A stretch of 50,208 bases of DNA from Clostridiales bacterium (GTDB lineage: Bacteria; Bacillota; Clostridia; Christensenellales; Aristaeellaceae), in the NCBI GenBank assembly GCA_012523405.1, contig JAAYIN010000009.1, positions 1 to 50,208 of the forward strand. Direction: 5' to 3'. The notes under the pieces were generated by a model that saw nothing but the letters and a program-made list of their open reading frames with translations, searched no databases and was not told where the DNA came from. Made by a program: the position numbers and the translations under genes. Positions 5,221 through 49,947 of the stretch are shown here, one piece after another (position 1 is the stretch's first letter; the number at the start of each line of letters is the position of its first letter).

Positions 5221-7506
5221 CTATTGCTCTTCTAGCTCCATCATTTGAAGTCTGTTGTCAAGTTCTGTGATCATCTGATCAATCTTGATCGCGCCGTCCG
5301 TGTACTTTTGAATCAGCTGACCAATCTCATCCGAAGCAGCGCCGCTTCCGCGATATATCGGGCTTTGCTTTTGAACGTATAGATAGGGCGCGATGTTCGC
5401 GCGATACTCGGCAAGCTCCTCAGCCGCTGCGTCGTAGCGGTTTGCCTCTTCCTCTTCTATGTAATTCTCCCACTGCTCAATATTCGTTTCGATGAATGGC
5501 TTGTTTTCATCGGAAGCCGCTTCCAACAGCTCCTGCGCATTTTCAAGTGCCTCTGTGAATGCGTCCATATTATTCTGATAATAGTCCGCTTCAAGGGGTT
5601 CATTGTGATCGGGGAAGAAGGTGATATTCACCGTTCGCTTGGTCAGATTATCAAGATAGCTCGTCATATAGGCAATCGCCTGATCCACTCGCTTGGTCTT
5701 GGCATTGATGGCCATGACCGTTAGCTGTGCACCAATGAGCGGCTCATCATCGCCAAAGATCGGCAAGAGCATCGGGGTTGCTTCTTCCACATAGCTATTG
5801 TAAAACTGGCCTACGCTGCAATACGTTGAAAACAAGCTGTTTTGCTCGAAATAATAGATGGTTTGCTCTGCCTCATCGCCTGTGGAATACTCGCTGAAGT
5901 CGATCTGTTCAAAGGCCTCCATCAACTGCCGATACTCAGGCGTATCAAAGCGCAGCGCCTCACCCTTGGCATCCTTATACAGTATGTACTGCTCAAGGAC
6001 AGTGTAGAAGAGCATATCCTTAAAAGATTCTTGCTCAAACAGCTGCACGTCAGGAAATTCATCGGCATAATCATACGTCCAGTTCGCCACGAAATCAAGC
6101 AGCTCTATGACCGTCGCGGGCAGATCGTCCTTCGTGAAACCAATCTCTTCCCACCGATTCATATTCACGCCAAACGTATTGCAGTACATATCAATCGGCA
6201 CGCCGTACAGCTTGCCATCCACCAGCAGCGCGTCCCTGAACTGCGGATACATCTTCTCGATACGCGATGTGATTTCTGGATAGCCGCTTAGATCAAGGCA
6301 ATAGCCCTTCTCGATCAGCTTATCAACGGGCATATAGCTCACGCTAAGCTCAAGCACGTCCAGCATTTGGTTCTCGCTGACCATCGCCTGAGCGATCGTC
6401 TCCAGATCAGAGGTTCTGCTGCCGCTGCCGGCAATATCAACCGCTATGTCCGGATGATTGTTGGTAAATATCTTATGTGCGTCATTGCCTTGCTCGCCGT
6501 AAATCACGAGTGCGCCGTCATTGATGTTCTCGCTATCCAGCTTTCGCATGGTGATGCCTTCATACCCATAGGAGACGTAATAGCCGTCTGCATACAGGAC
6601 ATTCACGTTCATGCCGCCATATGGGGTGTCGCCTGTGTAGGCGCTGAGGCGTACCTCGCCAGTTGCCATATCAAGCGCTTTGATGCGCGTGCTATCGCGG
6701 TAATACACCTGACCATCCGCGTAGCAAATGCCGGTGGTGTAGTAGCCGTCCATCGAGTCTTCACTCTGAAGTGTGGTCGACGAAACAATCTTGTTGCTCT
6801 CGGGGTCAAAGACCGCGATCTTTGCCAGATCGTCATCGGAATCCGAACTGCCGCCCATATACATCGAAGTTTCATCATAAATCAGCACGAGGATTTTTCC
6901 GTCGTCATAGGGAGCCAGATCCCTGATTGCTTCAATTTCAAATGCCTTATGCTCGCCCGTCGTCAGGTTGAGGCGGCCAGCCGCTTGCCGCTGCATTTGC
7001 TGGGTGTAGTCCATTCCTGTGTAGTACAGCCAGCCGCCGCTTTGGAATATATGAAGCTGCTGCAAATATTCGGTGTAATCTTCCTGTACTCTTGACATGG
7101 TGGATATATCCAGCTTCACGTCCTGCACCACAGGCGCATATTCGCCCTGCGCATTGACAAGCTCGCATACGCTGCCGTCACCGATATTAAAACCGTAGAG
7201 CATGCCATTGTACTCAAACAGCGAATTAACAACGATCGTCTCGTTATCATCGTCTGCGATAAAACCCGCATACGTCATCACCTCACCCATCAGCGTTTCC
7301 TCGCTTGACAGCGTTGTGCGGGTGGTGAGCTTTCCGGTAGAATCCAGTAGGTACAGCTGCGACCCAACGGCCGCTACCGCTTCGATGTAGCGATTGTCAT
7401 CCACGCTCGAGATTGCCGCTCCATAGATGATTGTTGCCATCGCAGGGGATAGGGTAGCTAGGATCAGCATGAGGGATAGGGCTATTGATAGTAGTCTTTT
7501 TTTCAT
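5221..7506 (-). CDS. SBP-1: secreted solute-binding protein with propeller-like N-terminus (group A)
   Basis: 761 residues. The signal peptide runs about 1-24 and ends PAMA|T, with no cysteine. Residues about 30-325 hold repeated strand pairs ('GSQLYLLDSTGKLTTRTT', 'GMLYGFNIGDGS', 'GGWLYYTGM', 'GQVYYRDSTRIKALD', 'ADGYYVSYGYEG'), as in beta-propellers. The binding-protein core is about 330-630 ('GALVIYGEQGNDAHKIFTNN', 'GYCLDLSGYPEITSRI', 'VDGKLYGVPI'). A Glu-rich helical hairpin follows (about 645-700), then a last helix ending 'NRLQMMELEEQ'. AGGAG precedes the ATG. It is the only SBP beside the permease operon. The ligand is unknown; absence of sugar-enzyme genes gives no hint. Confidence 0.88.
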   Translation of the reverse strand: MKKRLLSIALSLMLILATLSPAMATIIYGAAISSVDDNRYIEAVAAVGSQLYLLDSTGKLTTRTTLSSEETLMGEVMTYAGFIADDDNETIVVNSLFEYNGMLYGFNIGDGSVCELVNAQGEYAPVVQDVKLDISTMSRVQEDYTEYLQQLHIFQSGGWLYYTGMDYTQQMQRQAAGRLNLTTGEHKAFEIEAIRDLAPYDDGKILVLIYDETSMYMGGSSDSDDDLAKIAVFDPESNKIVSSTTLQSEDSMDGYYTTGICYADGQVYYRDSTRIKALDMATGEVRLSAYTGDTPYGGMNVNVLYADGYYVSYGYEGITMRKLDSENINDGALVIYGEQGNDAHKIFTNNHPDIAVDIAGSGSRTSDLETIAQAMVSENQMLDVLELSVSYMPVDKLIEKGYCLDLSGYPEITSRIEKMYPQFRDALLVDGKLYGVPIDMYCNTFGVNMNRWEEIGFTKDDLPATVIELLDFVANWTYDYADEFPDVQLFEQESFKDMLFYTVLEQYILYKDAKGEALRFDTPEYRQLMEAFEQIDFSEYSTGDEAEQTIYYFEQNSLFSTYCSVGQFYNSYVEEATPMLLPIFGDDEPLIGAQLTVMAINAKTKRVDQAIAYMTSYLDNLTKRTVNITFFPDHNEPLEADYYQNNMDAFTEALENAQELLEAASDENKPFIETNIEQWENYIEEEEANRYDAAAEELAEYRANIAPYLYVQKQSPIYRGSGAASDEIGQLIQKYTDGAIKIDQMITELDNRLQMMELEEQ

Positions 7507-8132: not shown

Positions 8133-10409
8133 CTATTGTGCTTCTAGTTCCATCATTTTGATGCGCTGGTCAAAGTCCTTGATCATCTGGTCAAGGGTGA
8201 TTGCGCCGTCAAGGTACTTGAGTAGGAGCTGATTAACCTCTGTAACCGCTGCGCTTTCTGCGCTGTACAATGCGTTTTGCCCTTGCGCAACGAGTAGCGG
8301 CGCTAGGTTTTCGCGGTAATCTTGGAGCATCTCGGGGGATGCGTCATAGCGGTTGCTTTCTATGAGCTCAAGCTCGTTTTGTAGGTTGGTGAGCTGGTCT
8401 TCAAGCTCTGCTTTGTTTTCCGCGTCTGCATTCTCAAGCTGTGCCTTAGTCTTCTCAATGGCTTCGTTGCAGGATTTCACGCTGGACTGATAATGATCTG
8501 CTTCCAGTGGTTCGTTGTGATCGGGAAATAGCGTGATGTTCGCAGAATTCTTGTCCAGATTGTCCAAGTAGTTGACCACGTATTTGACTGCCTCATCGAT
8601 CCTTGAGGATTTTGGATTGATGATCATCACGCTCAGCAGGGTTGTGATCACCGCGTCCTGACCGTCAAGGAGCGGCAGGGGCAGTGCTTGGATGTTGTTC
8701 ATGCGCATGTTGCCGTAGAACATACCGACCGTTTGGCTCATGGTGAACAACGAATCCTGCATGTAGTAGTAAATCTGCTCGTCGTCTTCGCCGGAGGCAG
8801 ACTCAAGCTCTGAAAAGTCAATCGCTTCAAAAGCTTCCATCACCTCTCTGAACTCAGGCGTATCAAAGCGCAAATCCTCGCCCGTATATGCCGTGTAGGT
8901 CATATACTGCTGGAGAATGAGCGAGAAGAGCAGGTCACCAATTTGGTTGAACTCAAAGAGCTGAACCTCTGAATACTCGTCGCCATAGTCATACGACCAG
9001 TTGGATATGAATTCAAGCAGCCCGCAAACCGACGTAGGCAGATCATCCTCCGTCAGCCCAAGTTCTGCCCAAAGCTCCATGTTCACCCCAAAGGTCGTGC
9101 CATACGCATTGATCGGCACGCCGTAGAGCTTGCCGTCCACCGTGATCGCGTCCACAAACTGCGGATACATCTGCTCAACGCGTGATGTGATCTCGGTATA
9201 CTCGCTCAAATCAAGGCAATAGCCCTTTTGGATCAGCCGATCCACAGGCATATAGGTTGTATACAGCTCAAGGACGTCCAGCGTTTGGTCGCCGCTGACC
9301 ATTGCCTGCGTCAGGGATTCCAAATCGCTAGATGAATTGGTCGTGATATCAACGGGGATTTCAGGGTGGTTTTTCACGAAGCTCTTATGCGAGTCGCCGC
9401 CCATTTCGCCGTAAATCGTGAGCACGCCATCCAAAAGGCTCTCGCTGTCAAGCATCAAGCAGCTCAGCCCTTCGTAGCTATAGTACGCATAATAGCCGTC
9501 CGCATAGAAGGCTCTGGCGTTCATGCCGTCATACGTGCTGCCGCCTGTATATGCGCTGATACGCGATGTGCCCGTTGCCATGTCCATACCCTTGACGCGC
9601 GCGCCATCGCGGTAGAACACGCCTTTATCGCCTGCGCAAAGACCTGCCACGCCATAGCCGCCCATCGATGTTTCGGATGTGATCTCAACCTGGGATACCG
9701 CAGCATCCTTCTGAGGATCAAAAACCATCAGCTGTGCGTTTTGGGACAGAGATTCCGTGGAAATAGAGCCTGAGTACATCGCCGAATCATCATAGATCAG
9801 CGCCAGAAGCATGCCGTCTTGATACGGCACAAGCTCCTTAATCGCTTTGGTTGTAAACTCTTTGCCCTCGCCTGTCTCAAGGTTTATGCGACCCGAGCGC
9901 ATCGAATAGATCTCCGCATAGCTGATCCCTGCATAGTACAGCCAGCCGTCCATCCCAAAAACGCTCTTGAACTGCAAATAGCTGCTATACTCGCCTTCGT
10001 CAAACGCAAAGAGCGATGTATCAAGCGTTACATCCTGCTTCTGCTGAACAAATGTGCCCTGCTCATCCACCAGCAGGTACCACTCACCGCTCTGCACATT
10101 AAACCCATACAGCTTGCCGTCAAGCTCAAACAGCTCCTCAGGCATTAACACCACCGCGGCCGCTACATTGCCGATCACCGTTTCCTCGCCTGATGCCGCG
10201 TCCTGCGCAGTCATATCGCCGTTGCCATACAGTGCATAAATTTTCGAACCCACCGCTACCGCCGACATGATAGTCGTTGATGCGCTATCCTCATCAGATA
10301 CTGCCATTGATGATGAGGTGTGATACACAACCGTCGTTGCCAGCGCGGGTGCCATGACTGAAAAAACCATGATAACCGAGAGGATCAATGCGACCAATTT
10401 ATTCTTCAT
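8133..10409 (-). CDS. SBP-2: secreted solute-binding protein (group A)
   Basis: 758 residues. The signal peptide ends APALA|TT at about residue 24. Strand repeats occupy about 45-320 ('GSKIYALYGNGDMTAQDAA', 'GKLYGFNVQSGEW', 'DGWLYYAGISYA', 'KGVFYRDGARVKGMD'). The binding core runs from about 327 ('GVLTIYGEMGGDSHKSFVKN') through 'GYCLDLSEYTEITSRVEQ' and 'VDGKLYGVPINAYG' to about 630. The helical hairpin (about 640-690, 'ENADAENKAELEDQL') and the end 'QRIKMMELEAQ' are conserved. It has its own promoter and terminator, so it is a single-gene unit. It differs from SBP-1 by a Ser/Thr-rich stretch after the signal peptide (31-47). Confidence 0.88.
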   Translation of the reverse strand: MKNKLVALILSVIMVFSVMAPALATTVVYHTSSSMAVSDEDSASTTIMSAVAVGSKIYALYGNGDMTAQDAASGEETVIGNVAAAVVLMPEELFELDGKLYGFNVQSGEWYLLVDEQGTFVQQKQDVTLDTSLFAFDEGEYSSYLQFKSVFGMDGWLYYAGISYAEIYSMRSGRINLETGEGKEFTTKAIKELVPYQDGMLLALIYDDSAMYSGSISTESLSQNAQLMVFDPQKDAAVSQVEITSETSMGGYGVAGLCAGDKGVFYRDGARVKGMDMATGTSRISAYTGGSTYDGMNARAFYADGYYAYYSYEGLSCLMLDSESLLDGVLTIYGEMGGDSHKSFVKNHPEIPVDITTNSSSDLESLTQAMVSGDQTLDVLELYTTYMPVDRLIQKGYCLDLSEYTEITSRVEQMYPQFVDAITVDGKLYGVPINAYGTTFGVNMELWAELGLTEDDLPTSVCGLLEFISNWSYDYGDEYSEVQLFEFNQIGDLLFSLILQQYMTYTAYTGEDLRFDTPEFREVMEAFEAIDFSELESASGEDDEQIYYYMQDSLFTMSQTVGMFYGNMRMNNIQALPLPLLDGQDAVITTLLSVMIINPKSSRIDEAVKYVVNYLDNLDKNSANITLFPDHNEPLEADHYQSSVKSCNEAIEKTKAQLENADAENKAELEDQLTNLQNELELIESNRYDASPEMLQDYRENLAPLLVAQGQNALYSAESAAVTEVNQLLLKYLDGAITLDQMIKDFDQRIKMMELEAQ

Positions 10410-10505: not shown

Positions 10506-10552
10506 GTAAATCGACAAACGTTTATATCCTGTTTACATTTGCTAGCACGAGA

Positions 10553-10850
10553 CAGGGGCTTTGCCCCTGCACCCCACCAAAGGGACTAAGCCCCTTTGGT
10601 AACCCTGCTCTGCGCTTCGCGCAGGGGATGGGGGGAGGACGAGGACGGATGGGGCTCGAGACTGGGGCTTTGCCCCTGCACCCCACCAAAGGGACTAAGC
10701 CCCTTTGGTAACCCTGCTCTGCGCTTCGCGCAAGGGATGGGGGAAGGACGAGGACGGATGGGCTCGAGACTGGGGCTTTGCCCCTGCACCCTACCAAAGG
10801 GACTAAGCCCCTTTGGTAACCCTGCTCTGCGCTTCGCGCAGGGGATGAGG
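10553..10850. repeat. Three-hairpin repeat in three tandem copies (about 108-110 bp period)
   Basis: Copies of the 4813-4890 repeat recur with GGGACTAAGCCCCTTTGG at about 10581, 10691 and 10799. They are separated by a short GGACGAGGACGGATGGG spacer. The array lies beyond the SBP-3 terminator and upstream of the SBP-2 promoter. Long open frames on both strands here are repeat artefacts. Confidence 0.9.
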
Positions 10851-10876
10851 GGAATAGTGACAAAACAAATTCCAGC

Positions 10877-11135: not shown

Positions 11136-13382
11136 CTAGTCCTCCATTTCCATCATGATAAGTCTGGCGTCAAGGTCCTTGATCATCTGATCGCTTGTGA
11201 TCACTCCGCCTTTATACTTTGCCATCAGCGTCGTGACCTCCGTTGCCTCTGCGCCATCGCCGCCAAACAACGGATTGCTATGCAGGATGCACAGGAGGGG
11301 CGCGATGTCTGCGCGGTATCCTGCGATATCCTCCGCCGATGCGTCATAGCGATATTCCTCCTGCCACTCGATCTCATTTTCCCACATTTCGACCGCACCC
11401 TTGGCATCTGCTTGCCTTTCCTCAGGCGCGATTTCCAAAAACGCCTTTGCATTCTCAAGGTACTCCGTATATATCTGCACCATTGGCTCATAGTCTGGAT
11501 TTTCAAGGGGTTCGTTATGATCAGGGTACAGGGTGATATAAGCCGAATTTCGATCCAAATTATCAAGGTAGTTGATCAGGTAGGCAATCGACTGATCCAG
11601 CCTCGGGGTCCTTGAATTGATGACCAATACGCCCATATCTGCCCAAATCAGCGGATCATCCTCGCCAAAGAGCGACAGCGGCATCATTTCCATAACTTCG
11701 TCCGTTATGTAGCGCATGAACTCCCCTGTCGTATAGTTTGATATGAACAATGGGTCCGAATCGCTACCATACGATTCGTCTTCCTGAACGCTTGCGAAAA
11801 ACTCTTCAAAATCGATCTGCTCATACGCGTCCATCAGCTGCCTGAACTCAGGTGTATCAAAGCGGAGCGGCTCACCCGCGTGTTCCTTATACAGCATGTA
11901 CTGACGCAGCATGCAGCTGAAAAGCACCTGATCGATCTCATCGCGCTCCAAAAGCTTTAGCTCGGGAAATTCGTCGCTATAATCGTATGCCCAGTTCGCC
12001 ACAAAATCCATCAGTTCCAGCATGGTCGCGGGTACATCCTCCCGGCTCAGCCCGAGCGCTTCCCACGCTACCATATTCACACCGAAAGATGAGCTATACA
12101 GCGTCACAGGCACGCCGCAGAGCCTCCCGTCCACAAGCAGCAAATCCCGATACTGCGGGTACATCCCCTGAACGCGCGATGTGATTTCGGGGTATCCGCT
12201 CAGGTCAACGCAATAGCCCTTTTGGGCAAGCTTATCAACCGGCATAGCAGTAACGTTGAGCAATAGCACATCCAGCATCTGATTCCCGCTCACCATCGAC
12301 TGCGCGAGGGATTCTAAGCTTGAGGACATGTTGCTGTTAATATCAACGGGAATATCGGGGTAGTTTCGCGCGAAGGTCTGATGCATCTCGCTCCCATACT
12401 CGCCATAGATCATGAGCGCGCCGTCCTTCATGCTCTCGCTGTCAAGCTTTCTGGGATAAGCACCATCATATCCATAGAAGATATACCTGTCATCCGTGCC
12501 GCATACCCTCCAGCTCATGCCGCCATGCCTGCTCCTGCCTGTATATGCGCTGATGCGCTTGTGGGATGACGCAAGGTCCATCCCCATGATGCGCGAGCTA
12601 TCCTGATAATACAATTGACCCTCATTGTAGTAAATGCCCGAGATATACGCGGCCGCTAATGTATCCTCCGATTCAAGCGATACGGTATTTTCCACCACAC
12701 CGCTTTTGGGGTCAAGAATGCCGATTTGCGCCCCATTGTCCGTTCCGTCCGATCCTACATACATTTCAGATTCGTCATAGATCAGCGCGAGGAGTTTTCC
12801 CTCCTGATAAGGCGCAAGCTCTATGAGCGATTCGGTTTTAATCGCCTGATACTCGCCTGTTGTCAGGCTGATGCGCCCCGCCGTACGCTGAAGCTGCTCT
12901 ATAGAATTCACTCCCGTAAAGTACAGCCAGCCGTCCTGCACAAACAGGTTTCTAACCTCCAAATAATATAGATGAGCATCCATTATTTCGACCAAGCCTG
13001 ATGTATCCAGCACCAGCTCCTGCTTCACCAGTGCATATTCACCCTGTGCATTCACAATCTCGTACACATTGCCATCCTCTTGGAAAAAGCCATAGAGCTT
13101 CCCTTCGGATTCATACAGCTGACTTAGCAGGATGCTGTCCTCTTGCCTTTCTTCGTCGTCACTGTCCAGCATCACCTCGCCAAGCAGCGTTTCATCGTTT
13201 GACTCGGTGGTGCGCGTGGTGATTCGCCCTTCCTCATCCAGCAGATAAAGCTGCGAACCGATCGCCGCCACCGACAGTATCCTGCGGACAGTTGGGATCG
13301 TGCTTGACTCTGCTATGGCAGGGGCAATCCCCGATAGGATCATCAGTATGGATAGGGCGATGGCAACAAATCTTTTGTACAT
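11136..13382 (-). CDS. SBP-3: secreted solute-binding protein (group A)
   Basis: 748 residues. The signal peptide ends APAIA|ESS. The N-terminal strand-repeat region opens 'GSQLYLLDEEGRITTRTTES', close to SBP-1. The binding core includes 'GALMIYGEYGSEMHQTFARN', 'GYCVDLSGYPEITSRVQG' and 'VDGRLCGVPVTLYSSSFGVN'. The post-core segment has the group A signature 'ITLYPDHNEPLE', and the hairpin is Glu/Ala-rich. The protein ends 'DARLIMMEMED'. A GAGGGGG site precedes the ATG. It has its own promoter upstream and its own terminator downstream, so expression can be set independently of SBP-2. Confidence 0.88.
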   Translation of the reverse strand: MYKRFVAIALSILMILSGIAPAIAESSTIPTVRRILSVAAIGSQLYLLDEEGRITTRTTESNDETLLGEVMLDSDDEERQEDSILLSQLYESEGKLYGFFQEDGNVYEIVNAQGEYALVKQELVLDTSGLVEIMDAHLYYLEVRNLFVQDGWLYFTGVNSIEQLQRTAGRISLTTGEYQAIKTESLIELAPYQEGKLLALIYDESEMYVGSDGTDNGAQIGILDPKSGVVENTVSLESEDTLAAAYISGIYYNEGQLYYQDSSRIMGMDLASSHKRISAYTGRSRHGGMSWRVCGTDDRYIFYGYDGAYPRKLDSESMKDGALMIYGEYGSEMHQTFARNYPDIPVDINSNMSSSLESLAQSMVSGNQMLDVLLLNVTAMPVDKLAQKGYCVDLSGYPEITSRVQGMYPQYRDLLLVDGRLCGVPVTLYSSSFGVNMVAWEALGLSREDVPATMLELMDFVANWAYDYSDEFPELKLLERDEIDQVLFSCMLRQYMLYKEHAGEPLRFDTPEFRQLMDAYEQIDFEEFFASVQEDESYGSDSDPLFISNYTTGEFMRYITDEVMEMMPLSLFGEDDPLIWADMGVLVINSRTPRLDQSIAYLINYLDNLDRNSAYITLYPDHNEPLENPDYEPMVQIYTEYLENAKAFLEIAPEERQADAKGAVEMWENEIEWQEEYRYDASAEDIAGYRADIAPLLCILHSNPLFGGDGAEATEVTTLMAKYKGGVITSDQMIKDLDARLIMMEMED

Positions 13383-13889: not shown

Positions 13890-16157
13890 TTAGTCCTCTA
13901 GCGTCATCATATTCATTCGCTTATCCAGCTCGCGGATGAAGGTATCCGCGTCGATGGCTTTTTGTCGGTACTGATTGACAAGAGATGTGAAATCCGCCTC
14001 GCCCTCGCCTTGCCAGTTCGTAGTGACGTAGACATAGGGCGTTACCTGCTCCCGATACTGCGCGATTTCATCCTTGGTAATGGATATTTTGAGATTATCG
14101 CTCGCTGCGAGCCTCTCCTGCAGATTCTGGAGCGAATCCTCATATTCCGCTTTGTTTTCATTACTTGCGTTTTGAAGCGCAAGCTCTGTTCTCTCTATGC
14201 TACTTCGGAGTGACTCAACCTCCGTCTCGTAGTCCGGATTGACAACCTCTTCGCTTAGGTCTGGGTAGAGCGCGAAGGAAAGCTCGGCGTTGTAGTTTTT
14301 CATGTACTCTGCCACATACAAAGCCGCCTCATCCATATGCTCGGTCTTCGCATTGACCATCATGATTTGCAGGGAGATGCCCACAAGCGGCTGAATGCCT
14401 TCGTCCAGTGCCAGTATCAGCGGCATATCTGATCGATTGATATCATACGCGTTTGGCGTGCTAGCGTCGTTGGCTATGCGGAAAAGCGATTCTTTGGGGT
14501 AAAAGCTGGCGGACACCTCGGGCATGTCCCATGCCTCCTCGCCATACCGCTCATAAGGATCAAAATCAGCAAAATCAATTTGCTCAAATGCCGTGAGCAG
14601 CTTTCTAAACAGCGGGGTGTCAAAGCGAATCTCCCCCTGATCCCTCAGCTGCACGTCCGTATATTGGTTCATTATCCACCAAATCAAGTAGCTCTTGGAG
14701 GAGATATTGCTAAAGAGGTTGATGTCCTCATGCTCATCGCCGTAATCCGCTTGGAAATTCGCGAGGAAATCCAAGAGCTCGGGGAAGGTTTTGGGCAGAT
14801 CATCCACCGTCAGCCCCAGCAGCTCCACGGTGTTGGGGTCATAACCAAGCCCATTGCTTGACAGATAAATCGGCACGCCATACAGCTTGCCATCCTTCAT
14901 CAATTGATCCGCAATCGGAGGGCTCATCCTTGAAATCATTTCCATGATCTCGGGATAGCCGCTCATGTCGGCTGCATAGCCCTTTGCAAAGACCCTTGAT
15001 AGGGGATTCATGGTACTGTACAGCGCCAGAATATCGACCATATCCCCGCCCGTAATCATGTTGGTAACGATATCGGTAAACGCGAGATCCGTTGCGCTCT
15101 GTGCTATCACGATATCAATCTGTGGATTGTTCCTGATCGCCGCCACGTGCTCATTGACGCCGAAGCCTGAAATGCGGAGTGCACCGCCTTGGATTCCAGC
15201 GGGTTGCAGCTGACGTACAAACACCAGGCTAGAGGCATAGACATACAGGTCATCGCTCACAAGCGCGCCGCGGCTATAGACACCGCCCTGCACAGGCATA
15301 TAGCCGCAGAGCACATAGGGCGCTGCCTGATTTACCAGCGCATAAATCTCAGAGCCCGACATGAAGTAGATATTGTTGGATGTCTCGCCATAGACCACGC
15401 CGCCGTCGTCGCCTGTCTTTGTCTTTGCGATCACCTGCGACTCGTTGGTCTGTAGATCCAAGAGTACAATATCAAGCGGGTTTGTTTCGCCTGTATCGGG
15501 GTCGTATGCACTTTGCGAATCATAGCAGGTCATGAGCAGCTTATGATCCTTGTACGGGGACAGTTTTACCAGCTGATCGCTCAGCACTGTCTGCCCAAGC
15601 AGCTGACCCGATGCGAGGTCATACCACGCGACCAATTGCTTGCCCTCGCGTGTATTGATATTCAGGTAAAGCTCGTCCTCCTGAGCAAATACATGATTGA
15701 CGAATCCGTCTGTATACTTCTCCTCCATAAGGGAATAGAGAATATCCGAAACCGCTACCTCTCCATCCGCATCGATCAGGCGGCGAACAGTCATGGTCAT
15801 TTCATCAAAGGCATAGACCTCATTGCCGTTTGTAAACAGATGATCCAGTGCGATGTCGTCCTCGCTATCGGGCGCACCATCGTGGCCAAATCCATGGACG
15901 ACCACATTGTCTGAAATCAGAATGTCCATTTGGTTCGTCTCTGGTTTCCAGCGGGCAAAGCCCAGATCGTGCATGCGGCTATTGCTCACCAGCGCATAGA
16001 CAGCATCCGCCGTGGTGACCACTCTTGATGCTTCCAGCTCCTTTTCTCCATTCGTGAAAACCACATTGAAGTTTCTGCCCTCGCTTGCCAGCGCAGGCAT
16101 GGTGAATGATGCCAGCATGAGCATCGTGCATAACAATAGGCTGATGATCCTTTTCAT
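13890..16157 (-). CDS. SBP-4: secreted solute-binding protein (group B)
   Basis: 755 residues. The signal peptide ends MPALA|SEG; the cysteine at residue 10 follows Leu, so it is not a lipobox. The strand-rich region (about 30-320) contains the group B motifs 'VRRLIDADGEVAVSDILYSL' and 'NNIYFMSGSEIYAL'. The binding core (about 325-630) includes 'KGYAADMSGYPEIMEM', 'MKDGKLYGVPIYL' and 'GEIRFDTPLFRKLLTAFEQI'. The helical hairpin (about 640-690) has 'NASNENKAEYEDSL'. It ends 'ELDKRMNMMTLED'. GAGGAGG precedes the start. An ECF-like promoter motif lies upstream. Confidence 0.88.
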   Translation of the reverse strand: MKRIISLLLCTMLMLASFTMPALASEGRNFNVVFTNGEKELEASRVVTTADAVYALVSNSRMHDLGFARWKPETNQMDILISDNVVVHGFGHDGAPDSEDDIALDHLFTNGNEVYAFDEMTMTVRRLIDADGEVAVSDILYSLMEEKYTDGFVNHVFAQEDELYLNINTREGKQLVAWYDLASGQLLGQTVLSDQLVKLSPYKDHKLLMTCYDSQSAYDPDTGETNPLDIVLLDLQTNESQVIAKTKTGDDGGVVYGETSNNIYFMSGSEIYALVNQAAPYVLCGYMPVQGGVYSRGALVSDDLYVYASSLVFVRQLQPAGIQGGALRISGFGVNEHVAAIRNNPQIDIVIAQSATDLAFTDIVTNMITGGDMVDILALYSTMNPLSRVFAKGYAADMSGYPEIMEMISRMSPPIADQLMKDGKLYGVPIYLSSNGLGYDPNTVELLGLTVDDLPKTFPELLDFLANFQADYGDEHEDINLFSNISSKSYLIWWIMNQYTDVQLRDQGEIRFDTPLFRKLLTAFEQIDFADFDPYERYGEEAWDMPEVSASFYPKESLFRIANDASTPNAYDINRSDMPLILALDEGIQPLVGISLQIMMVNAKTEHMDEAALYVAEYMKNYNAELSFALYPDLSEEVVNPDYETEVESLRSSIERTELALQNASNENKAEYEDSLQNLQERLAASDNLKISITKDEIAQYREQVTPYVYVTTNWQGEGEADFTSLVNQYRQKAIDADTFIRELDKRMNMMTLED

Positions 16158-30088: not shown

Positions 30089-30126
30089 AATCCATTATTT
30101 TACGCTAACAAAGGAGGCTTCCCCTT

Positions 30127-34647: not shown

Positions 34648-34710
34648 TTCTTGTTCCTCCTCATTGATATTGAAAAGCAATTGCATGGAGTTCATTTATT
34701 CACTATAAAG

Positions 34711-38205: not shown

Positions 38206-38250
38206 TTTATTTTCCCCAATATGGGGTCAAGGGAGCGAATAGGTGGGGAC

Positions 38251-38620
38251 GAAAATGTTGGGTACCATTAAAAGGGCGAAGCCCCCCCTTTGTGGGGGAG
38301 AAAATGTTGGGTACCATTAAATGGGCGAAGCCCTCCCTTGTGGGGGAGAAAATGTTGGGTACCATTAAATGGGCGAAGCCCCCCTTTGCGGGGGAGAAAA
38401 TGTTGGGTACCATTAAATGGGCGAAGCCCCCCTTGTGGAGGAGAAAATGTTGAGTACCATTAAAAGGGCGAAGCCCCTCCTTGTGGGGACGAAAATGTTG
38501 GGTACCATTAAAAGGGCGAAGCCCTCCCTTGCGGGGGAGAAAATGTTGGGTACCATTAAATGGGCGAAGCCCCCCTTGTGGAGGAGAAAATGTTGGGTAC
38601 CATTAAATGGGCGAAGCCCC
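38251..38620. repeat. 48-bp tandem repeat, eight copies, ending at the SBP-11 stop
   Basis: GAAAATGTTG(G/A)GTACC recurs at 38251, 38300, 38348, 38396, 38443, 38491, 38539 and 38586 (period 47-49 bp). Each unit ends with ATTAAA(A/T)GGGCGAAGCCC. There are no variable spacers, so this is not a CRISPR array. The last GGGCGAAGCCCC overlaps the SBP-11 stop codon. A related 42-45-bp unit lies downstream of SBP-12. Confidence 0.92.
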
Positions 38621-40923
38621 TAGTCTTCCAGACGCATCATGGTGAGGCGATTGTCCATCTCTTGGATGTACTGATCGAGGGTGATGGCTTTGTATAGGTA
38701 TTGACTCTTGAGGGTGCTAAGCTCCTGAGCGGAGTCGCCAGACCTGTCGCTGATGGGGGTTATGGGGGTAACGTAGAAATAGGGGGATGCTTTTTCTCTG
38801 AAGGCCTTGATGGCGTCCTGTGAAACCAGCATCTTCCATGCGTCACTTTCGCTAAGCGATTCCTTCGAACGCTCAAGCGTGCCTTCAATACCCGCTTTTT
38901 CCTCGGGATTTGCAGTAGCGAGACGCTTTTCGAGCACGTCGATGTCGTTTTGTATCTCTTGAACCATCGCCTCATAATCGGGGTTTTCAATGGGCTGATT
39001 GTTGGTTGAATCAAAGGCATAGCTGTTTTGAATCCCGTAGTTCTTGATGTACTCCGCCATGTATAGCGCGGCGATATCCTTGCGGGTGGAGTGGGGATTT
39101 ACAACCATGATGGTCATGATCATCTCGCCGATGGGCTCTAGGCCTTCGTCCAGCGGCAAAATCAATGGGGTGTAATATGCATTGCTGCTGTAGGCGGTTG
39201 GATCGTTGAATTGGGTGTTGTCGCTGAGGAGAGTGGGGCTTTCATAAAACTCACTCAAGAGGGCATCGTTGTTCCATATCTCCTCGCCGTATTGCTCGTG
39301 TGGATCAATCTCGGCAAAATCAATCTTTTCATAGGCAGCCATGAGCTTGCGGAAAAGCGGGGTGTCCATGGTGACGACTTCGCCAGCCCTCAGCTGATTC
39401 GCCGTATAGAGCGAAATGATGTCATTCATCAAGCTTTCACGCATGTCCATGTTCTCAAATAGCTTCACTTCAGGATGCGATTCGCCGTAGTTCTCTTGGA
39501 AGTTCGCCATAAACTCCAAAAGCTCCACAAAGGTCTTTGGCATATCATCGGGCGTAAGGTCAAGCAAATTAAGGGTTTCGTTGATGTAGGCATAGCCCTC
39601 GGTTTCAGCTAAGGCAGGTACGCCGTAAAGTTTGTCATCCTTCATGATGACATCCTTGACGGCACTTGGCATGGACGCGGTTAATGCCATCAGCTCAGGG
39701 TATCCGCTGAGATCAGCTGCATAACCCTTTTGGATGAGCTTGCCAATCGGGGTTATGGTCGATATGAAATTCATGATATCAATCGTTGTATCTCCGCTGA
39801 TCATCATCGTATAGTAATCATTGATTCCGCGATAACGGATATCAGCACGTGTGATAGCTACTTGGGGATGCGCAGTGATAAAGGCATAGTGCTCCTCGCC
39901 GTCCAGATCGCCAAAGAGGGTGAGCGCGCCGCCGGAAAGCTCCGGCGAATCCAGCTCGCGAATAGCGATCATGTTGTTGTTTGTTTTGATGGCAAACAAG
40001 CCGCCTTCCAGCGCTGCACCATAGGAGTCTCTGTACATATAGGACGGCATATAGGCGCTGCGCTGATAGTCGCCTGTCATGTCCTTGTAGGCATATACGC
40101 TGGTGCCTGAAGCAAAATAAATGGTGTTGTTTTCCGCCAAATAGCTCACACAGCTGTCGTAGGGATCCTTTGTATAACCAATTCCCTCGCTCTCGCCTGT
40201 GACCATATCACGGATCACAAGGCCAGCGGGCTCATACATCCCTGTTTCCGCGTTGTAGGCATTTTCGTAATCTGCCTGCACGAGGAGGAGCTTGTTGTTC
40301 CCAATGGGGGCGTAGTACCTAGTGAGCGGAAGATCAGCCTGCGAAATGACATCGCCGGTTTTGATATCAAAGCAGGTGACGCGCTTGTAGTCGCGGTTGT
40401 CCTTGTTAATGGACATACCTGCGTAGAGCACATCGTCCTTTGCCAGAACCTCGTCAAAATAAAGCGGATATTCGTTATCGCTCTGTGCTTCCTCCTCCGA
40501 ACCGATATAGTAGAGAATATCGGTAGAGGTAGGGTTTCCGTCTGCATCAATGAGCTTTCTGACGCTGAAGGATTCATCGTGATAGCCGTATAGCTCATTG
40601 TCGTTGACAAAAATTTTGACAATATTGGTTGCGGTGCGGTCCTCGCCCTGCTCGTCATTGGCGTACATGGTGAGCACCTCGGTGATCAGCGGCATGGATT
40701 CGTCCATACCAGCCTTCCACATGTGGATTTCGCAATTGTTTGTGGAGCTGTCATGAAGCAGGGCATAGACGGTGTCGTCTGTGGACGCGATCATTTCCAG
40801 ATATAAGCCCTGTTTGAAGGTGATGTTTATGTTCCTAGTCTCGGCGGCAGTTGCGATAGCGGCAGGGCATAGGGCGGTGATCACTAAAAGCATGGTTAGC
40901 ATTGCACTGAGTAAGCGTTTCAT
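38620..40923 (-). CDS. SBP-11: secreted solute-binding protein (group B)
   Basis: 767 residues from ATG 40923, chosen because GAGGAGGAC lies just upstream; the frame extends five codons further through the ribosome site. The signal peptide opens 'MKRLLSAMLTMLLVITALCPAA'. Its Cys follows Leu and is not a lipobox. It is closely related to SBP-12 ('AENNTIYFASGTSVYAYKDM', 'RAGEVVTMDTPLFRKLMAAYE'). The core has 'HYAFITAHPQVAITRADI', 'KGYAADLSGYPELMALTA' and 'MKDDKLYGVPALAE'. The hairpin is 'ATANPEEKAGIEGTLERSKESL'. It ends 'EMDNRLTMMRLED'. Confidence 0.88.
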   Translation of the reverse strand: MKRLLSAMLTMLLVITALCPAAIATAAETRNINITFKQGLYLEMIASTDDTVYALLHDSSTNNCEIHMWKAGMDESMPLITEVLTMYANDEQGEDRTATNIVKIFVNDNELYGYHDESFSVRKLIDADGNPTSTDILYYIGSEEEAQSDNEYPLYFDEVLAKDDVLYAGMSINKDNRDYKRVTCFDIKTGDVISQADLPLTRYYAPIGNNKLLLVQADYENAYNAETGMYEPAGLVIRDMVTGESEGIGYTKDPYDSCVSYLAENNTIYFASGTSVYAYKDMTGDYQRSAYMPSYMYRDSYGAALEGGLFAIKTNNNMIAIRELDSPELSGGALTLFGDLDGEEHYAFITAHPQVAITRADIRYRGINDYYTMMISGDTTIDIMNFISTITPIGKLIQKGYAADLSGYPELMALTASMPSAVKDVIMKDDKLYGVPALAETEGYAYINETLNLLDLTPDDMPKTFVELLEFMANFQENYGESHPEVKLFENMDMRESLMNDIISLYTANQLRAGEVVTMDTPLFRKLMAAYEKIDFAEIDPHEQYGEEIWNNDALLSEFYESPTLLSDNTQFNDPTAYSSNAYYTPLILPLDEGLEPIGEMIMTIMVVNPHSTRKDIAALYMAEYIKNYGIQNSYAFDSTNNQPIENPDYEAMVQEIQNDIDVLEKRLATANPEEKAGIEGTLERSKESLSESDAWKMLVSQDAIKAFREKASPYFYVTPITPISDRSGDSAQELSTLKSQYLYKAITLDQYIQEMDNRLTMMRLED

Positions 40924-40979
40924 TTTTGTCCTCCTCATCGGTGTTGGATATATCTTACATATTTGTTGTTATTATAAGA

Positions 40980-42496: not shown

Positions 42497-42590
42497 CTCG
42501 GGGCTTCGAAATGCTGGGTTTCATTAAGAGGGCGAAGCCCCTGTTAGTCTTCGAAATGTTGGGTTTCATTAAGAGAGCGAAGCTCCTAGT
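42497..42590. repeat. 45-bp repeat carrying a captured SBP-12 gene end
   Basis: CTTCGAAATG(C/T)TGGGTTTCATT recurs at 42504 and 42549. The second unit includes TTAGTCTTCGA, which on the minus strand reads Phe-Glu-Asp-stop, parallel to the true SBP-12 terminus Leu-Glu-Asp-stop at 42586. Each unit ends in an (A/G)GCGAAGC(C/T) hairpin. Confidence 0.85.
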
Positions 42591-44883
42591 CTTCGAGGCG
42601 CATCATGGTGAGGCGCTTGTCCATTTCTTGGATGTAGCCGTCAAGGGTGATGGCTTTATCCAAGTACTGGCTGCTTAGGGTGCCAAATTCCTGAGCGGAG
42701 GTTCCTGACCAGTCTCTGAGGGGAGTCATGGGCGTAGCGTAGAAATAAGGGAATATGTTCTCTCGGTAGGCTTTGATCCCCTCCTCTGAGACAAGCATCT
42801 TCCATTGTTCGCTTTTGCTGAGCGATTCCTTGGCTAGCTTGAGCGTGTCCTCGATAACCGCTTTTTCCTCAGCGCCTACGATGTTGAGGCGATTTTCCAT
42901 CATTTCGATGTCGCTTTCCATCGACCGAACCGTTGACTCATAAAAGGGGTTCTCGGCGGTCTCATTGTAGTCAGACCTAAAGGCATAGCTGCTTCGAATC
43001 GAGTAGTTCTTCATGTACTCTGCCATGTATAGGGCGGCGGTATCCTTGTGGGTGGAGTGGGGATTTAAAACCAAAATGGTCATGGTCAGCTCACCAATAG
43101 GCTCGAGCCCTTCGTCAAGCGGCAAGACGAGCGGGGTGTAATTTGCACTCGGGTTGTAGGTGGTTGGGCTGTTGAATTCAACGTAATTGCTCAGGAGCGC
43201 GGATTTTTGATAAAACTCATTCATGAGGGTTTCGTTGCTCCATATCTCGTCGCCATATTCCCCGTATGGATCAATCTCAGCAAAATCAATGGATTCGTAG
43301 GCAGCCATGAGCTTGCGGAAAAGCGGGGTGTCCATGGTGACGACTTCGCCAGCCCTCATCTGATGAGCGATATAGAGCGAGGTGAGATCGCTGAGCACGC
43401 TGGCGCTCATGTCCATGTTTTCAAATAGCATCACGTCAGGATGCGATTCGCCGTAGTTCTCCTGAAAGCTTGCCATGAACTCCAAAAGCTCCAAAAAGGT
43501 CTTGGGCATATCATCATGGGTGAGCCCAAGCAGCTCGAGGGTTTCGTTGATATAGCCATAGCCCTGGGCTGCCGCCATTGTGGGCACACCGTAGAGCTTG
43601 CCGTCCTTCATGATCATATCCTTGACGGTATCAGGCATGGCGGCCGTTAGTTCCATCAGCTCGGGGTATCCGCTTAGATCAGCAGCATAGCCCTTTTGGA
43701 TGAGCCTGCCAATGGGGGTCGTGTATGAGGTGAAGTTCACGATATCAACCGATGCATCTGCGCTGACCATCATGGTGTAGTAGTCATTGACTCCCTCAAA
43801 ATTGATATCAGCATTTGCGACGGCAATTTCGGGATGCGCATTGATAAAGGCAAAATGCTCATCGCCTTGCATCACGGCATACATGGTGAGCGCGCCCTCA
43901 GAGAGCGTGGGCGAATCAAGCTCGCGCACGGTGATGGTGTTGTTGTCTGACATGCTGACAAACAGCCCGCCCGCAAGCGCTGCGCCGTAGGAATACCTTG
44001 ATACAAAGGATGGCATGTAGGCACTGAGCTGATAGTCGCCTGTCATGTCCTTGTAGGCATATACGCTGGTGCCAGAAGCAAAATAAATGGTGTTGTTTTC
44101 GGCCAAATAGCTTATGCAGGTATCGTTAATGTCCTTTGTATAACCAATGCCCTCGCTCTCGCCTGTGGTCATATCGCGATATACAAGGCCGGCGGGCTCA
44201 TACTCGCCTGTTTCTGCGTTGTAGGCATTTTCATGATCAGCCTGTACGAGGATGAGCTTGTTGTACCCAATGGGGGTAAAGTATTGGGTGAGGGGAAGAT
44301 CGGCCTGCGAAATGACTTCGCCTGAGTTGATATTACGGCTGACGACCCGCATGCTGCCGCGGTTGTCCACGTAAACGTACTGACCCGTGTAGAGCACATC
44401 ATCCTTTGCCACAATCACATCAAAATGAATCTGATTGGCGTCCTCGCCTTCCGCCTTTGTATCCACGATATAGTAAAGAATATCGGTGGATGTTGGGTTT
44501 CCGTCTGCATCAATGAGCTTTCGGATGCTGGAGGACTCACTGTCATAGCCGTAAAGCTCATCGTCGTTGGCGATAATATCGGTCATATTGGTTGTGAGGC
44601 TCTTGCCCATATCGTCATAAGCGTACATGGTGAGACCTTCTGTGATCACCGGTACAGCTTCGTCCGTGCCAACCTTCCAAGCATGGATTTGGTTGTTCCC
44701 TGTGATGCTTTCGCGCAGCATGGCATAGACGGTGTCACTTGTGGACGCGATCATCGTGAGGGACAATTCCTGACTGAAGGTAATGTTTTTGTTCCTAGTC
44801 ACGCCCTCGGTTGCCATGGCGGCGGGGCATAGGGCGGTGATAATCAAAAGCATCGTTAAAACTGTGCTCAGTAAGCGTTTCAT
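42586..44883 (-). CDS. SBP-12: secreted solute-binding protein (group B)
   Basis: 765 residues from ATG 44883, which has GAGGAGGACC just upstream and a normal signal peptide ('MKRLLSTVLTMLLIITALCPAA'). An upstream ATG would add 68 residues read through the promoter. It is a close paralogue of SBP-11. The core has 'HFAFINAHPEIAVANADI', 'KGYAADLSGYPELMELTA' and 'MKDGKLYGVPTMAA'. The hairpin is 'NIVGAEEKAVIEDTLKLAKESL'. It ends 'EMDKRLTMMRLED'. The Cys in the signal follows Leu, not a lipobox. SBP-11 and SBP-12 now flank the four-SH3 gene, so that gene may have been inserted into a tandem pair. Confidence 0.88.
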   Translation of the reverse strand: MKRLLSTVLTMLLIITALCPAAMATEGVTRNKNITFSQELSLTMIASTSDTVYAMLRESITGNNQIHAWKVGTDEAVPVITEGLTMYAYDDMGKSLTTNMTDIIANDDELYGYDSESSSIRKLIDADGNPTSTDILYYIVDTKAEGEDANQIHFDVIVAKDDVLYTGQYVYVDNRGSMRVVSRNINSGEVISQADLPLTQYFTPIGYNKLILVQADHENAYNAETGEYEPAGLVYRDMTTGESEGIGYTKDINDTCISYLAENNTIYFASGTSVYAYKDMTGDYQLSAYMPSFVSRYSYGAALAGGLFVSMSDNNTITVRELDSPTLSEGALTMYAVMQGDEHFAFINAHPEIAVANADINFEGVNDYYTMMVSADASVDIVNFTSYTTPIGRLIQKGYAADLSGYPELMELTAAMPDTVKDMIMKDGKLYGVPTMAAAQGYGYINETLELLGLTHDDMPKTFLELLEFMASFQENYGESHPDVMLFENMDMSASVLSDLTSLYIAHQMRAGEVVTMDTPLFRKLMAAYESIDFAEIDPYGEYGDEIWSNETLMNEFYQKSALLSNYVEFNSPTTYNPSANYTPLVLPLDEGLEPIGELTMTILVLNPHSTHKDTAALYMAEYMKNYSIRSSYAFRSDYNETAENPFYESTVRSMESDIEMMENRLNIVGAEEKAVIEDTLKLAKESLSKSEQWKMLVSEEGIKAYRENIFPYFYATPMTPLRDWSGTSAQEFGTLSSQYLDKAITLDGYIQEMDKRLTMMRLED

Positions 44884-44937
44884 ATTGGTCCTCCTCATTG
44901 ATTCATGCGTATTTTGGTAGTTTGTAGCTACTAGATA

Positions 44938-44964
44938 AACGAAGGCTGTTGGGTAAATCTTGCA
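44938..44964 (-). promoter_or_regulatory. ECF-like promoter motif of SBP-12
   Basis: On the minus strand TGCAAG (44959-44964), a 17-bp spacer and CGTT (44938-44941), about 55 nt upstream of the ATG. Confidence 0.55.
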
Positions 44965-44976
44965 TTGAGCAGATTT

Positions 44977-45029
44977 TATGGGTCGTGAGCTCAGAATGCA
45001 AATGCAATAGCCATCAAAAACGACCCATA
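44977..45029 (-). terminator. Possible terminator downstream of the PHP gene
   Basis: TATGGGTCGT (44977-44986) pairs perfectly with ACGACCCATA (45020-45029) around a 33-nt loop. On the minus strand only AAAATC follows, so it may instead be a regulatory dyad upstream of SBP-12. Confidence 0.4.
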
Positions 45030-45118
45030 GCAAGAAACACCAAGCGCCGCGTTTTTGCAAACAACGAGAAAGGGATTTCATAGCCATGAGCCATTGTGTT
45101 GATGAACATCAAAAGCGA

Positions 45119-47700: not shown

Positions 47701-49947
47701 ATGAAAAAGCGTTTGATAGCGGTGGCAATGTCGATAATGATGATGATGTCTGTTTCTATGCCTGCAGTGGCGGTGAGTGCTGAGACAGGCTCTCATTTCG
47801 TGGGTAGTGAGAACCGATTCGTCCAGTCAGTTGCTGTGATTGGAGCGCAGCTGTATATTCTAGATATAGATGGAAACATCACCACACGCACGGCGCCGTC
47901 AAGGGATGAAACGCTGCTTGGCATCGTCAATCAGTACGTCATGGATGGCGATGAGTTAACCATGGACGTCCTGATCTCCCAATTGTTTGGGTATGAGGGC
48001 AAGCTGTATGGCCTTAACGCGGATGACGGCACATTGTTTGTGCTTGCAAACGAACTAGGCGAATATGCCCCTGTGCGGCAGGACTTGGTGCTGGATGCAT
48101 CTGGCCTCTCCTATGATATGGGCGAATATTCGAGTATGCTGAATATCAAAAACCTATTTACGCAGGATACTTGGCTGTATTATACGGGAGAGTTGTATGG
48201 TGAAGGGCAAGAGTATAAGGCAGGACGCATCAGTCTGGAAACGGGCGAGCATAAAGCATTTTCGTCCGTAGGGCTCAAGGAGCTTGCGCCTTACAAGGAT
48301 GGAAACGTACTGGCATTGATCTTTGACGAGAATGCGACCAATACCAGCTCTTTATCGGGCTATGCCGAGAATTTGGCACAGATTGCAGTCTTTAATCCGC
48401 AAAATGAATCGCTGCAAAATCCCATCGTGCTTGAAACCGATACTACGATGGGCGGCCTGTACACCTCAAACCTTTGCTCCGCAGGGGATCAGGCGTATTA
48501 CTTTGATGGCGCACGTATCAAGGGGCTGGATCTTGAGACGGGGGACATTCGCATCAGCGCATATACAGGCGATGGCGAATACAGCGGCATGAGCCTGAAA
48601 AGCTGCTATGTGGATGGCTACTTATTTTCCTACGACTATTACGGCATGACTTCCCGCAAGCTGGATCACGACAACCTCAAGGACGGTGCGCTCGTAATCT
48701 TTGGCGATGGCGGTAGTGAACCGCATAAGACCTTTTCCAAAAACTATCCTGATATCCCCGTTGATCTGTCTAGCAGCAACTCCACGGATTTGGATTTTCT
48801 CACACAGGCGATGATCAGTGAGAATCAAATGCTGGACGTGCTGGTGCTTAATTTGTCGAATTACCCTGTGGATAAGCTCATGGAGAAGGGCTATTGCCTT
48901 GACCTGAGCGGATATCCCGAAATCACCTCACGCATTGAGACGATGGATTCGCAGCTTCTGGACACGATGATCGTGGATGGCAAGCTATACGGTGTGCCTG
49001 TGGGGCTATACGCCACATCATTCGCCGTGAACATGAAAACTTTGGATGAGCTTGAGCTCACCATGGATGACATGCCTACCTCCGTCCTTGAACTGCTGGA
49101 TTTTGTAGTAAATTGGACGCAGGACTATGGCGATGAGCATCCGGATATAGAGCTTTTTGAATTTACGCTGATGAAGGATATCTTCTTCAGCAATATCCTT
49201 TCACAGTATAATATTTATATGCGGCAAAAAGGCGAGCAGCTTTCGTATGATACCCCTGAATTCAGGCAGATTATGGACGCCTTTGAACAGATCGACTTTA
49301 GGGAGTTTTCAGGCGGCGATGACGCAGATTTCTCCTGGGGTCATGAATCGCTATTTCTGATGTCACACTCGGTAGCGAATTTCCAGACATTCGCATCACC
49401 AGACGGTTCAAATCAACGCATTGAGCCTATGCCCCTATCGCTTCTGGGCGGTGATGATCGCTTGATCGATGCGGCCGTCACCGTGATGGTCATCAATCCA
49501 AAAACCAAAAGGCTCGAGCAGTCACTTACCTATCTGACAAACTACCTTGACAACCTTTTTATCTACGCCGAACATATCACCTTATTTACCGATCACAACG
49601 ATCCGGTTGAGACACAGGATTATCAGGCGAATTTCAAAGTCTACTCAGACTTACTTGCAGATACAAAGCAACGCTTAACCTCCGCTACGCAGGAGTACCA
49701 TGCAATGCTCAAAGCTGATATCGAAATGTATGAAAATGATCTGGCTTTGCTGGAAGAAAACCGCTACGAGGTAACCGCCCAAGAGATCCTTACCTACCGT
49801 GAATCCATTGCGCCCTTGCTTTGCATACAGCAATATCAAGCGAATTATGGCAATCTATTCACCAAATATATGGATGGCACAAGCACCGTCGATGAAATGA
49901 TCAAAGACGCAGACGCACGCCTGAGAATGATGGAGCTGGAGGAGTAG
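47701..49947 (+). CDS. SBP-13: secreted solute-binding protein (group A), plus strand
   Basis: 748 residues and the only family member on the plus strand. The signal peptide is Met-rich and ends MPAVA|VSAE, with no cysteine. Strand repeats include 'GAQLYILDIDGNITTRTA', 'GKLYGLNADDGTLFVL' and 'DTWLYYTGELYG'. The core has 'GALVIFGDGGSEPHKTFSKN', 'GYCLDLSGYPEITSRIET' and 'VDGKLYGVPVGLYATSFAVN'. The hairpin is 'TSATQEYHAMLKADIEMYENDL'. It ends 'DARLRMMELEE'. Protein relationship is to SBP-1/SBP-3, but the promoter resembles group B. GGAG precedes the ATG. Confidence 0.88.
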   Translation: MKKRLIAVAMSIMMMMSVSMPAVAVSAETGSHFVGSENRFVQSVAVIGAQLYILDIDGNITTRTAPSRDETLLGIVNQYVMDGDELTMDVLISQLFGYEGKLYGLNADDGTLFVLANELGEYAPVRQDLVLDASGLSYDMGEYSSMLNIKNLFTQDTWLYYTGELYGEGQEYKAGRISLETGEHKAFSSVGLKELAPYKDGNVLALIFDENATNTSSLSGYAENLAQIAVFNPQNESLQNPIVLETDTTMGGLYTSNLCSAGDQAYYFDGARIKGLDLETGDIRISAYTGDGEYSGMSLKSCYVDGYLFSYDYYGMTSRKLDHDNLKDGALVIFGDGGSEPHKTFSKNYPDIPVDLSSSNSTDLDFLTQAMISENQMLDVLVLNLSNYPVDKLMEKGYCLDLSGYPEITSRIETMDSQLLDTMIVDGKLYGVPVGLYATSFAVNMKTLDELELTMDDMPTSVLELLDFVVNWTQDYGDEHPDIELFEFTLMKDIFFSNILSQYNIYMRQKGEQLSYDTPEFRQIMDAFEQIDFREFSGGDDADFSWGHESLFLMSHSVANFQTFASPDGSNQRIEPMPLSLLGGDDRLIDAAVTVMVINPKTKRLEQSLTYLTNYLDNLFIYAEHITLFTDHNDPVETQDYQANFKVYSDLLADTKQRLTSATQEYHAMLKADIEMYENDLALLEENRYEVTAQEILTYRESIAPLLCIQQYQANYGNLFTKYMDGTSTVDEMIKDADARLRMMELEE

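Follow-up and report, generated by a model that had tools for sequence, protein, structure and literature searches.

CUT1-type oligosaccharide importers (MalEFG/UgpABE-like) can use a shared ATPase of the MsmX type, MsmX being an ATPase shared between importers, and the solute-binding proteins (SBPs) of Gram-positive bacteria are typically lipoproteins. Several SBPs can serve one transporter system: Borrelia Opp is described with five binding proteins that are independently regulated (PMC5736914), and Pseudomonas with five DppA proteins (DppA1-A5) on one DppBCDF (PMC4206461). SBPs of the Bug/TTT type are expanded in Bordetella and in Rhodoplanes, the latter with 434 TTT SBP genes and one nine-gene tandem array (PMC5994714). 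The extracytoplasmic propeller AztD hands zinc to the SBP AztC (PMC6689063). An earlier note on the DNA analysed here took one binding protein per permease set as the norm for import systems; many-SBP-one-permease systems are already on record (PMC5736914, PMC4206461, PMC5994714).

Here, we analysed a stretch of 50,208 bases (the window) from the draft genome of a gut-type Clostridia bacterium (3.56 Mb in 130 contigs, 96% complete). The window is an entire contig (C54), so that both of its sides are cut by the assembly. Its gene array consists of 13 intact paralogous ORFs of 700-833 aa (Table 1; genes are named by their first coordinate), twelve on the minus strand and only 47701 on the plus strand, with a total of 29,658 bases or 59% of the window, in agreement with the earlier estimate that about 60% encodes one protein family. 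The 13 proteins align end to end, with 24 invariant columns and 18-50% identity to the first member (5221), and a profile built from them recovered all 13 in the genome with a weakest E-value of 4e-195, far beyond chance, the 13 being the profile's own members. The earlier observation of a single family of 13 paralogs is confirmed; one member, 19210, is divergent. The shared plan that had been described (signal peptide, strand-repeat N-terminus, binding-protein core, helical hairpin and conserved last helix) was recovered in all its elements; the permease pair (2978-4763), around which the array had been placed, lies outside it, at the left end. The true starts of three genes (42586, 38620 and 32335) are probably internal, at the places in Table 1 where signal peptides begin.

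Table 1. Annotated features of the window, with position, strand and basis or remark.
Feature	Position	Strand	Basis or remark
MacB-PCD-like membrane protein, 397 aa, last operon gene	405..1598	-	Pfam MacB_PCD 3e-12; orthologs in same operon place
HlyD/MacA-like adaptor, 453 aa	1602..2963	-	weak RND_mfp / NHLM_micro_HlyD matches far below cut-off
perm2, MalG/UgpE-like permease	2978..3898	-	BPD_transp_1 1.4e-11; UgpE-like 1.6e-22, below that model's cut-off
perm1, MalF/UgpA-like permease	3912..4763	-	BPD_transp_1 2e-16; UgpA-like 6e-31, below that model's cut-off
receptor A1 (propeller + SBP), permease-proximal	5221..7506	-	clade A
N-terminal beta-propeller of 5221 (residues 36-331)	6514..7401	-	AlphaFold2 model; Foldseek propellers
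receptor A2	8133..10409	-	clade A
receptor A3	11136..13382	-	clade A
receptor B1	13890..16157	-	clade B
receptor B2	16488..18785	-	clade B
divergent receptor, 700 aa	19210..21312	-	tree: groups with scattered family members, neither A nor B
receptor B3	21355..23622	-	clade B
receptor B4, nearest paralog 21355, dN/dS 0.30	23784..26051	-	clade B
receptor B5, likely start near 34644	32335..34695	-	clade B
receptor B6	35921..38134	-	clade B
receptor B7, likely start near 40923	38620..40938	-	clade B
receptor B8, likely start near 44883, nearest paralog 38620, dN/dS 0.38	42586..45087	-	clade B
receptor A4, sole plus-strand member	47701..49947	+	clade A

A model of 5221 computed from a 13-sequence alignment (pLDDT 79.6, pTM 0.79) comprises a strand-rich N-terminus, a binding-protein core (~333-640), a helical hairpin (643-663/669-688) and terminal helices. 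When the N-terminal domain was modelled alone with AlphaFold2 from 47 sequences (out of 69 available domains), the model reached a pLDDT of 91.4 and a pTM of 0.91 and displayed about six four-strand blades, counted by eye. Foldseek with this propeller model returned 625 PDB matches at E<=0.001, and no close family was found among the best 50 of 625, which, by their descriptions, we take to be propeller-containing proteins (WD40, kelch, designed, BtuG and others). Pfam gave no family above cut-off in the propeller domains scanned (the best, a COPA/B propeller, at 1.6e-05 with 25 bits versus 57), and the lack of a named domain for this part agrees with the earlier view that its fusion to an SBP core is uncommon. 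Foldseek with the core, taken from the single 5221 model, retrieved CUT1-type solute-binding proteins (best E 5e-12) with TM-scores by target mostly of 0.5-0.65, rmsd values of 6-12 A in alignments spanning two domains; the 50 core matches listed were mostly oligosaccharide SBPs, with dinucleotide-binding proteins too. Among PDB sequences the profile had 26 matches, at profile positions of about 340-509; going by their names, two are designed esterases and the others sugar- or solute-binding proteins. Pfam SBP_bac_8 was above cut-off in 8/13 receptors, below cut-off in 11136 and absent from 19210, 21355, 32335 and 35921, and a search of the genome with PF00496 (peptide SBPs) gave no match in the window. 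Foldseek, sequence matches and SBP_bac_8 thus concur on the oligosaccharide-type SBP fold of CUT1-type importers, presumably a cluster D-like one, and the profile and structure comparison proposed in the earlier note yielded an N-terminal part modelled as a beta-propeller on a CUT1-like core.

Downstream of 5221, on the same strand and at the left contig end, lies an operon encoding two permeases (perm1 and perm2), an HlyD/MacA-like adaptor and a MacB-like protein, the latter two conserved and absent from the earlier note. Both permeases match BPD_transp_1, as do those of CUT1 importers, and the EAA-type loop, inspected in perm2 only, reads EAG..DGAG and is for the most part conserved across 9 sequences. 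The HlyD-like protein (1602..2963) has no Pfam match and is single-copy in its genome; orthologs, likewise single-copy, occur in 7/17 genus genomes with 62-75% identity in the other six. All MacB-like orthologs (8/8) match MacB_PCD and nothing else, with no ABC_tran, whereas a MacAB exporter pairs its adaptor with a MacB that has its own ATPase domain, and no ATPase was recognised in the operon by a motif scan of the loci or by Pfam for the window genes. The MalK-type OB domain (OB_MalK) had one match over cut-off in the genome (on C87) and one below, and a match outside the operon fits a shared ATPase of the MsmX kind.

To compare operon structure, we used 44 annotated loci besides the window (36 from relatives and 8 from the same genome), picked for holding the family and not as a census. 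The 39 loci of the initial set carry the labels Clostridia, Clostridiales, Eubacteriales, Christensenellaceae, Bacillota/Firmicutes or Candidatus names; 20 were used unchanged, 8 gave way to refetched stretches of the same contigs and 11 were left out of the operon count (L047, L062, L063, L068, L069, L071-L076). The order receptor-perm1-perm2-HlyD-MacB was complete in 15/44 and partial in 5/44 loci, several being cut by the locus end. Under a 1.5-kb chaining rule, one to three receptors were chained to perm1 in 19 of the 20 operon-bearing loci; the exception is L053, whose two receptors lie ~5.8 kb upstream, and in L147 (G192) two of the four in-line receptors lie beyond a 3.2-kb gap. The single permease pair noticed earlier is indeed the only one in the window, there is one HlyD-type partner in the whole genome, and the arrangement named beforehand as refuting, a separate permease pair for every SBP, was seen in none of the annotated loci. 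Upstream of the operon in L041 and L055, seven proteins (an Hsp33, a TPR, an HD and a chitobiase-C/TPR protein, a RecQ-type helicase, a pyruvate kinase and one unmatched) gave no hint of a substrate.

Searches beyond the array traced the family through its taxonomic family, with a match at E<=1e-40 in 133/300 genomes and 33/50 genera (three candidates scored per genome, which caps the copy counts). Of 391 genomes from across the class, 2 matched at E<=1e-30 (two candidates scored per genome), the present genome and one other of its family. Within the genus, 8/17 genomes had a match at E<=1e-20, G014 a distant one only, and the seven genomes with close receptors are the same seven that have the HlyD ortholog; a plasmid collection searched with receptor 5221 gave no match. 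Ten further, more distant complete members are found in the same genome away from such an operon, and many likewise in relatives, so that the fold is not tied to this permease. To relate linkage to protein length in the 85 complete members, we defined linkage by a distance rule and took a length of >=650 aa to mean that the propeller is present: 40/40 members chained to perm1 are at least 650 aa long, versus 30/45 unlinked ones (Fisher p 2e-5), and without the window the linked members are 32/32 (p 2e-4), both p values being overstated because the rows share ancestry. All 15 members shorter than 650 aa are unlinked. Counted as unlinked were five window members (other genes intervene) and two in L152 (the contig ends), and the short L158 may be a broken gene. 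Judged by sequence length, operon-linked members appear all to keep the propeller.

Several family members stand in other surroundings. Contig C3 of G040 (L142 4225-14037, and L143) holds eight members in about 25 kb, several without the propeller; the perm1 and perm2 profiles detected no permease at this array, and in L142 members flank a gene pair encoding a weakly FtsX-like protein and an ABC-ATPase. Kinship of this FtsX-like protein with the window's MacB-like protein was considered and rejected (hhalign probability 0.4%). L148 (G024 contig C86) has a tandem of four similar members that lack the propeller and alternate with ORFs of 126 aa or similar, one of which, a 126-aa ORF, was scanned and had no Pfam match. 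The genome of the window holds three more such places: in L078 (C116, 4705-10010), six ORFs of 280-323 aa precede a distant family member, and Pfam matched none of the three that were scanned; in L081 (C36, 2649-3650), a 333-aa ORF without Pfam match adjoins a full member and matches the propeller part of the profile only, possibly as a stand-alone propeller; and in L086 (C34, 7410-9620), a fourteenth close copy with a late in-frame stop lies near an ordinary SBP and permease pair.

Within the array itself, positions 28073-31908 encode a BlaI-like repressor, a BlaR1-type M56 peptidase and an SH3 protein, and at 26293-27958 the gene for a Macro-domain protein overlaps a 293-aa ORF that has no Pfam match and that, from its motif as judged by eye, we take to resemble a sirtuin-type deacylase. 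An anti-phage reading of these intervening genes was dropped, as 6 proteins gave no PADLOC match.

None of the 13 array receptors has a lipobox (0/13), which sets them apart from CUT1-type SBPs that are lipoproteins. The lipobox pattern matches 10/77 family members with a readable N-terminus, including all four of L147 (G192 contig C1), whose receptors stand in line with the operon and in this respect are unlike the 13. Among the ordinary SBP_bac_1 proteins of the same genome (44 matches), 4/20 examined (L159-L178) match the pattern, and by eye one of these four is a clear lipoprotein, one is doubtful and two have the motif upstream of the real start. The ordinary SBPs examined thus mostly lack a lipobox too, so that non-lipidated SBPs look common in this genome and are not special to the array. 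An Omp85/BamA search of the genome (96% complete) gave no match, with control matches in 7/14; an outer membrane, which tripartite MacAB-type exporters presuppose, was thus not detected by this marker.

To determine the origin of the array, we built a tree from closed family ORFs of >420 aa that reach profile position 756 (n=85), dropping L158 (n=84) and leaving out the C34 copy with its in-frame stop. Receptors 5221, 8133, 11136 and 47701 form an own-lineage clade A (100/99), and 13890, 16488, 21355, 23784, 32335, 35921, 38620 and 42586 an own-lineage clade B (100/99), and 19210 belongs to a different clade (96/96), together with scattered members from this and other genomes. In 7/8 loci from the genus and a sister genus (L149-L152, L154, L156, L157), there are two receptors, a distal B and an A nearer the permeases, so one SBP per permease set is not the usual state of this operon; the contig of L152 stops short of the permeases, and in the departing locus, L155, the proximal copy groups with B with weak support (90/17), the distal copy being cut by the contig end. 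Since the A and B clades are own-lineage clades, among the genomes compared this lineage took A from one copy to four and B from one copy to eight, and the array resembles a lineage-specific increase in that part of one transporter which catches the ligand. Core identity averages 53% among the A paralogs of the window, about the level of A orthologs between species (51%), and for B the values are 46% and 42%; for perm2, the identity to three genus orthologs is 71-80%.

Neighbouring receptors in the window are separated by gaps of up to 726 nt, while in the seven two-receptor loci the gap is <100 nt or an overlap in five and ~385 nt in L156 and L157. REP-like palindromes (GGGGC-N-GCCC) gave 39 strand matches across 392-49992, 37 of them outside the gene list, and the gaps also hold longer direct repeats and tandem repeats (such as 48-nt units at 38245-38620 and 109-nt units at 10548-10854), possible substrates for duplication. 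Promoter-like sites with 10-11 of 12 matches lie just upstream of 5221, 8133 and 11136; overall such sites are not above shuffles (23 vs 24.2). A comparison of two chosen cleft loops went either way, loop 1 being slightly more and loop 2 slightly less variable in paralogs than in orthologs: for B, identities are 29% in paralogs and 36% in orthologs (loop 1) and 31% and 27% (loop 2), and for A, 48% and 53% (loop 1) and 39% and 37% (loop 2). This specificity signal is mixed, and we do not use it as evidence of new specificities.

From these data, the array can be read as a multi-receptor ABC importer, in which many receptors serve one permease pair, the ATPase acts in trans, the propeller docks and the receptors arose by repeated duplication; we give this a probability of about 0.5. 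Of the possibilities raised in the earlier note, the one that fits best is that many receptors feed a single transporter, the ligands and the coupling being what we infer. The product of each of the 13 genes would be a secreted receptor in which a beta-propeller is joined to a CUT1-like binding core. The ligands captured may differ from receptor to receptor yet be related, and are probably oligosaccharides or fragments of glycoconjugates. All would deliver to the one shared MalF/MalG-like pair perm1/perm2, energised in trans by the MalK/MsmX-type ATPase of the genome. The propeller would probably dock the non-lipidated receptor on the HlyD-like and MacB-PCD-like partners at the membrane, a step that is our guess. 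An ancestral B-A pair may have been duplicated repeatedly on this lineage, perhaps helped by the intergenic repeats. A tentative extension, which we hold less probable than the importer as such, is a hybrid envelope machine of a kind new to the literature, in which a CUT1-type core is physically joined to an ATPase-less HlyD/MacB-like scaffold and served by 13 swappable, propeller-tagged, non-lipidated receptors.

Several of the observations above would also suit orphan receptors, most of them secreted scavengers or sensors as proposed for Bug/TTT orphans, with only the proximal A feeding the importer: many family members lie off the operon in this genome and in relatives, the array has gaps of up to 726 nt and some genes with their own promoter-like sites, the 13 lack a lipobox, and the 15 members below 650 aa are all unlinked. 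However, the A/B expansion adjoins the operon and has a common origin with the pair of receptors that is linked to the operon in relatives, the genus genomes with close receptors are precisely those that keep the HlyD partner, and no sensor kinase domain was seen in the window proteins scanned with Pfam, which leaves this account doubtful. The recurrence of HlyD and MacB-PCD genes in an operon with no recognised ATPase, together with the FtsX-like and ABC-ATPase genes flanked by members in G040 (L142), would be expected if the operon were not mainly an importer but one envelope machine for export or for wall or glycan handling, with the receptors as exchangeable substrate or docking adaptors. 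This is unlikely, as both permeases are of the importer type, perm2 having an EAA-type loop, the receptor core has a sugar-SBP fold and no relationship between the FtsX-like protein and the MacB-like protein of the window was detectable (0.4%).

A diversifying surface antigen or adhesin set, another possibility of the earlier note, would account for the many secreted paralogs and for intergenic repeats that could recombine, but positive selection among the copies was not seen in the two window pairs. Pairwise dN/dS is 0.30 for 21355/23784 and 0.38 for 38620/42586, the closest window pairs, and 0.12-0.38 across ten pairs from the window and relatives, with no domain >0.54, some dS values being high and one undefined in these pairwise estimates. 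The tested pairs are under purifying selection, perhaps relaxed in the window. Since, moreover, the SBP motifs are conserved, all 13 frames are open and Pfam matched no wall anchor at E 0.01, we regard an antigen set as highly improbable. If the multi-receptor importer is right, a bacterium without a recognised outer-membrane assembly gene would have widened its range of ligands through extra copies of just one importer part, the receptor, and a conserved unnamed operon in many genomes of one Clostridia family would gain a role. A link between the propeller and HlyD/MacB would bear on how non-lipidated binding proteins are retained at such a cell surface.

Compared with known systems, the locus resembles CUT1 importers in SBP core fold and motifs, two permeases, the EAA-type loop in perm2 and the lack of a recognised ATPase in the operon, and differs from them in the N-terminal propeller and C-terminal hairpin of the window SBPs, the lack of a lipobox in the 13, the presence of up to 13 SBPs and the added HlyD and MacB-like genes. 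With Borrelia Opp and Pseudomonas Dpp it shares several SBP paralogs for one transporter system, but those are peptide SBPs in five copies, and the parts of the reports used here mention neither a propeller nor HlyD/MacB partners. The Bug/TTT systems are alike in a lineage-specific SBP expansion far beyond the membrane components and in tandem arrays, the nine-gene array having identities mostly <50% as in the window; they belong to another transporter family, in Proteobacteria, and their SBPs are TctC-type, whereas the Pfam and PDB matches of the array are SBP_bac_8 and sugar SBPs. AztD and, from the Foldseek matches, BtuG are likewise extracytoplasmic propellers linked with uptake, but are separate proteins with other ligands, while the array propeller is fused to the SBP. 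A literature search, with most subscription journals outside its scope, did not find a propeller-SBP fusion, an HlyD/MacB-linked operon of this kind or a 13-member array described. Many SBPs on one permease are themselves already known; what is new here is the propeller fusion, the HlyD/MacB partners and the copy number. An importer whose receptor set has been multiplied is the most economical account of the locus, and one with firm precedents.
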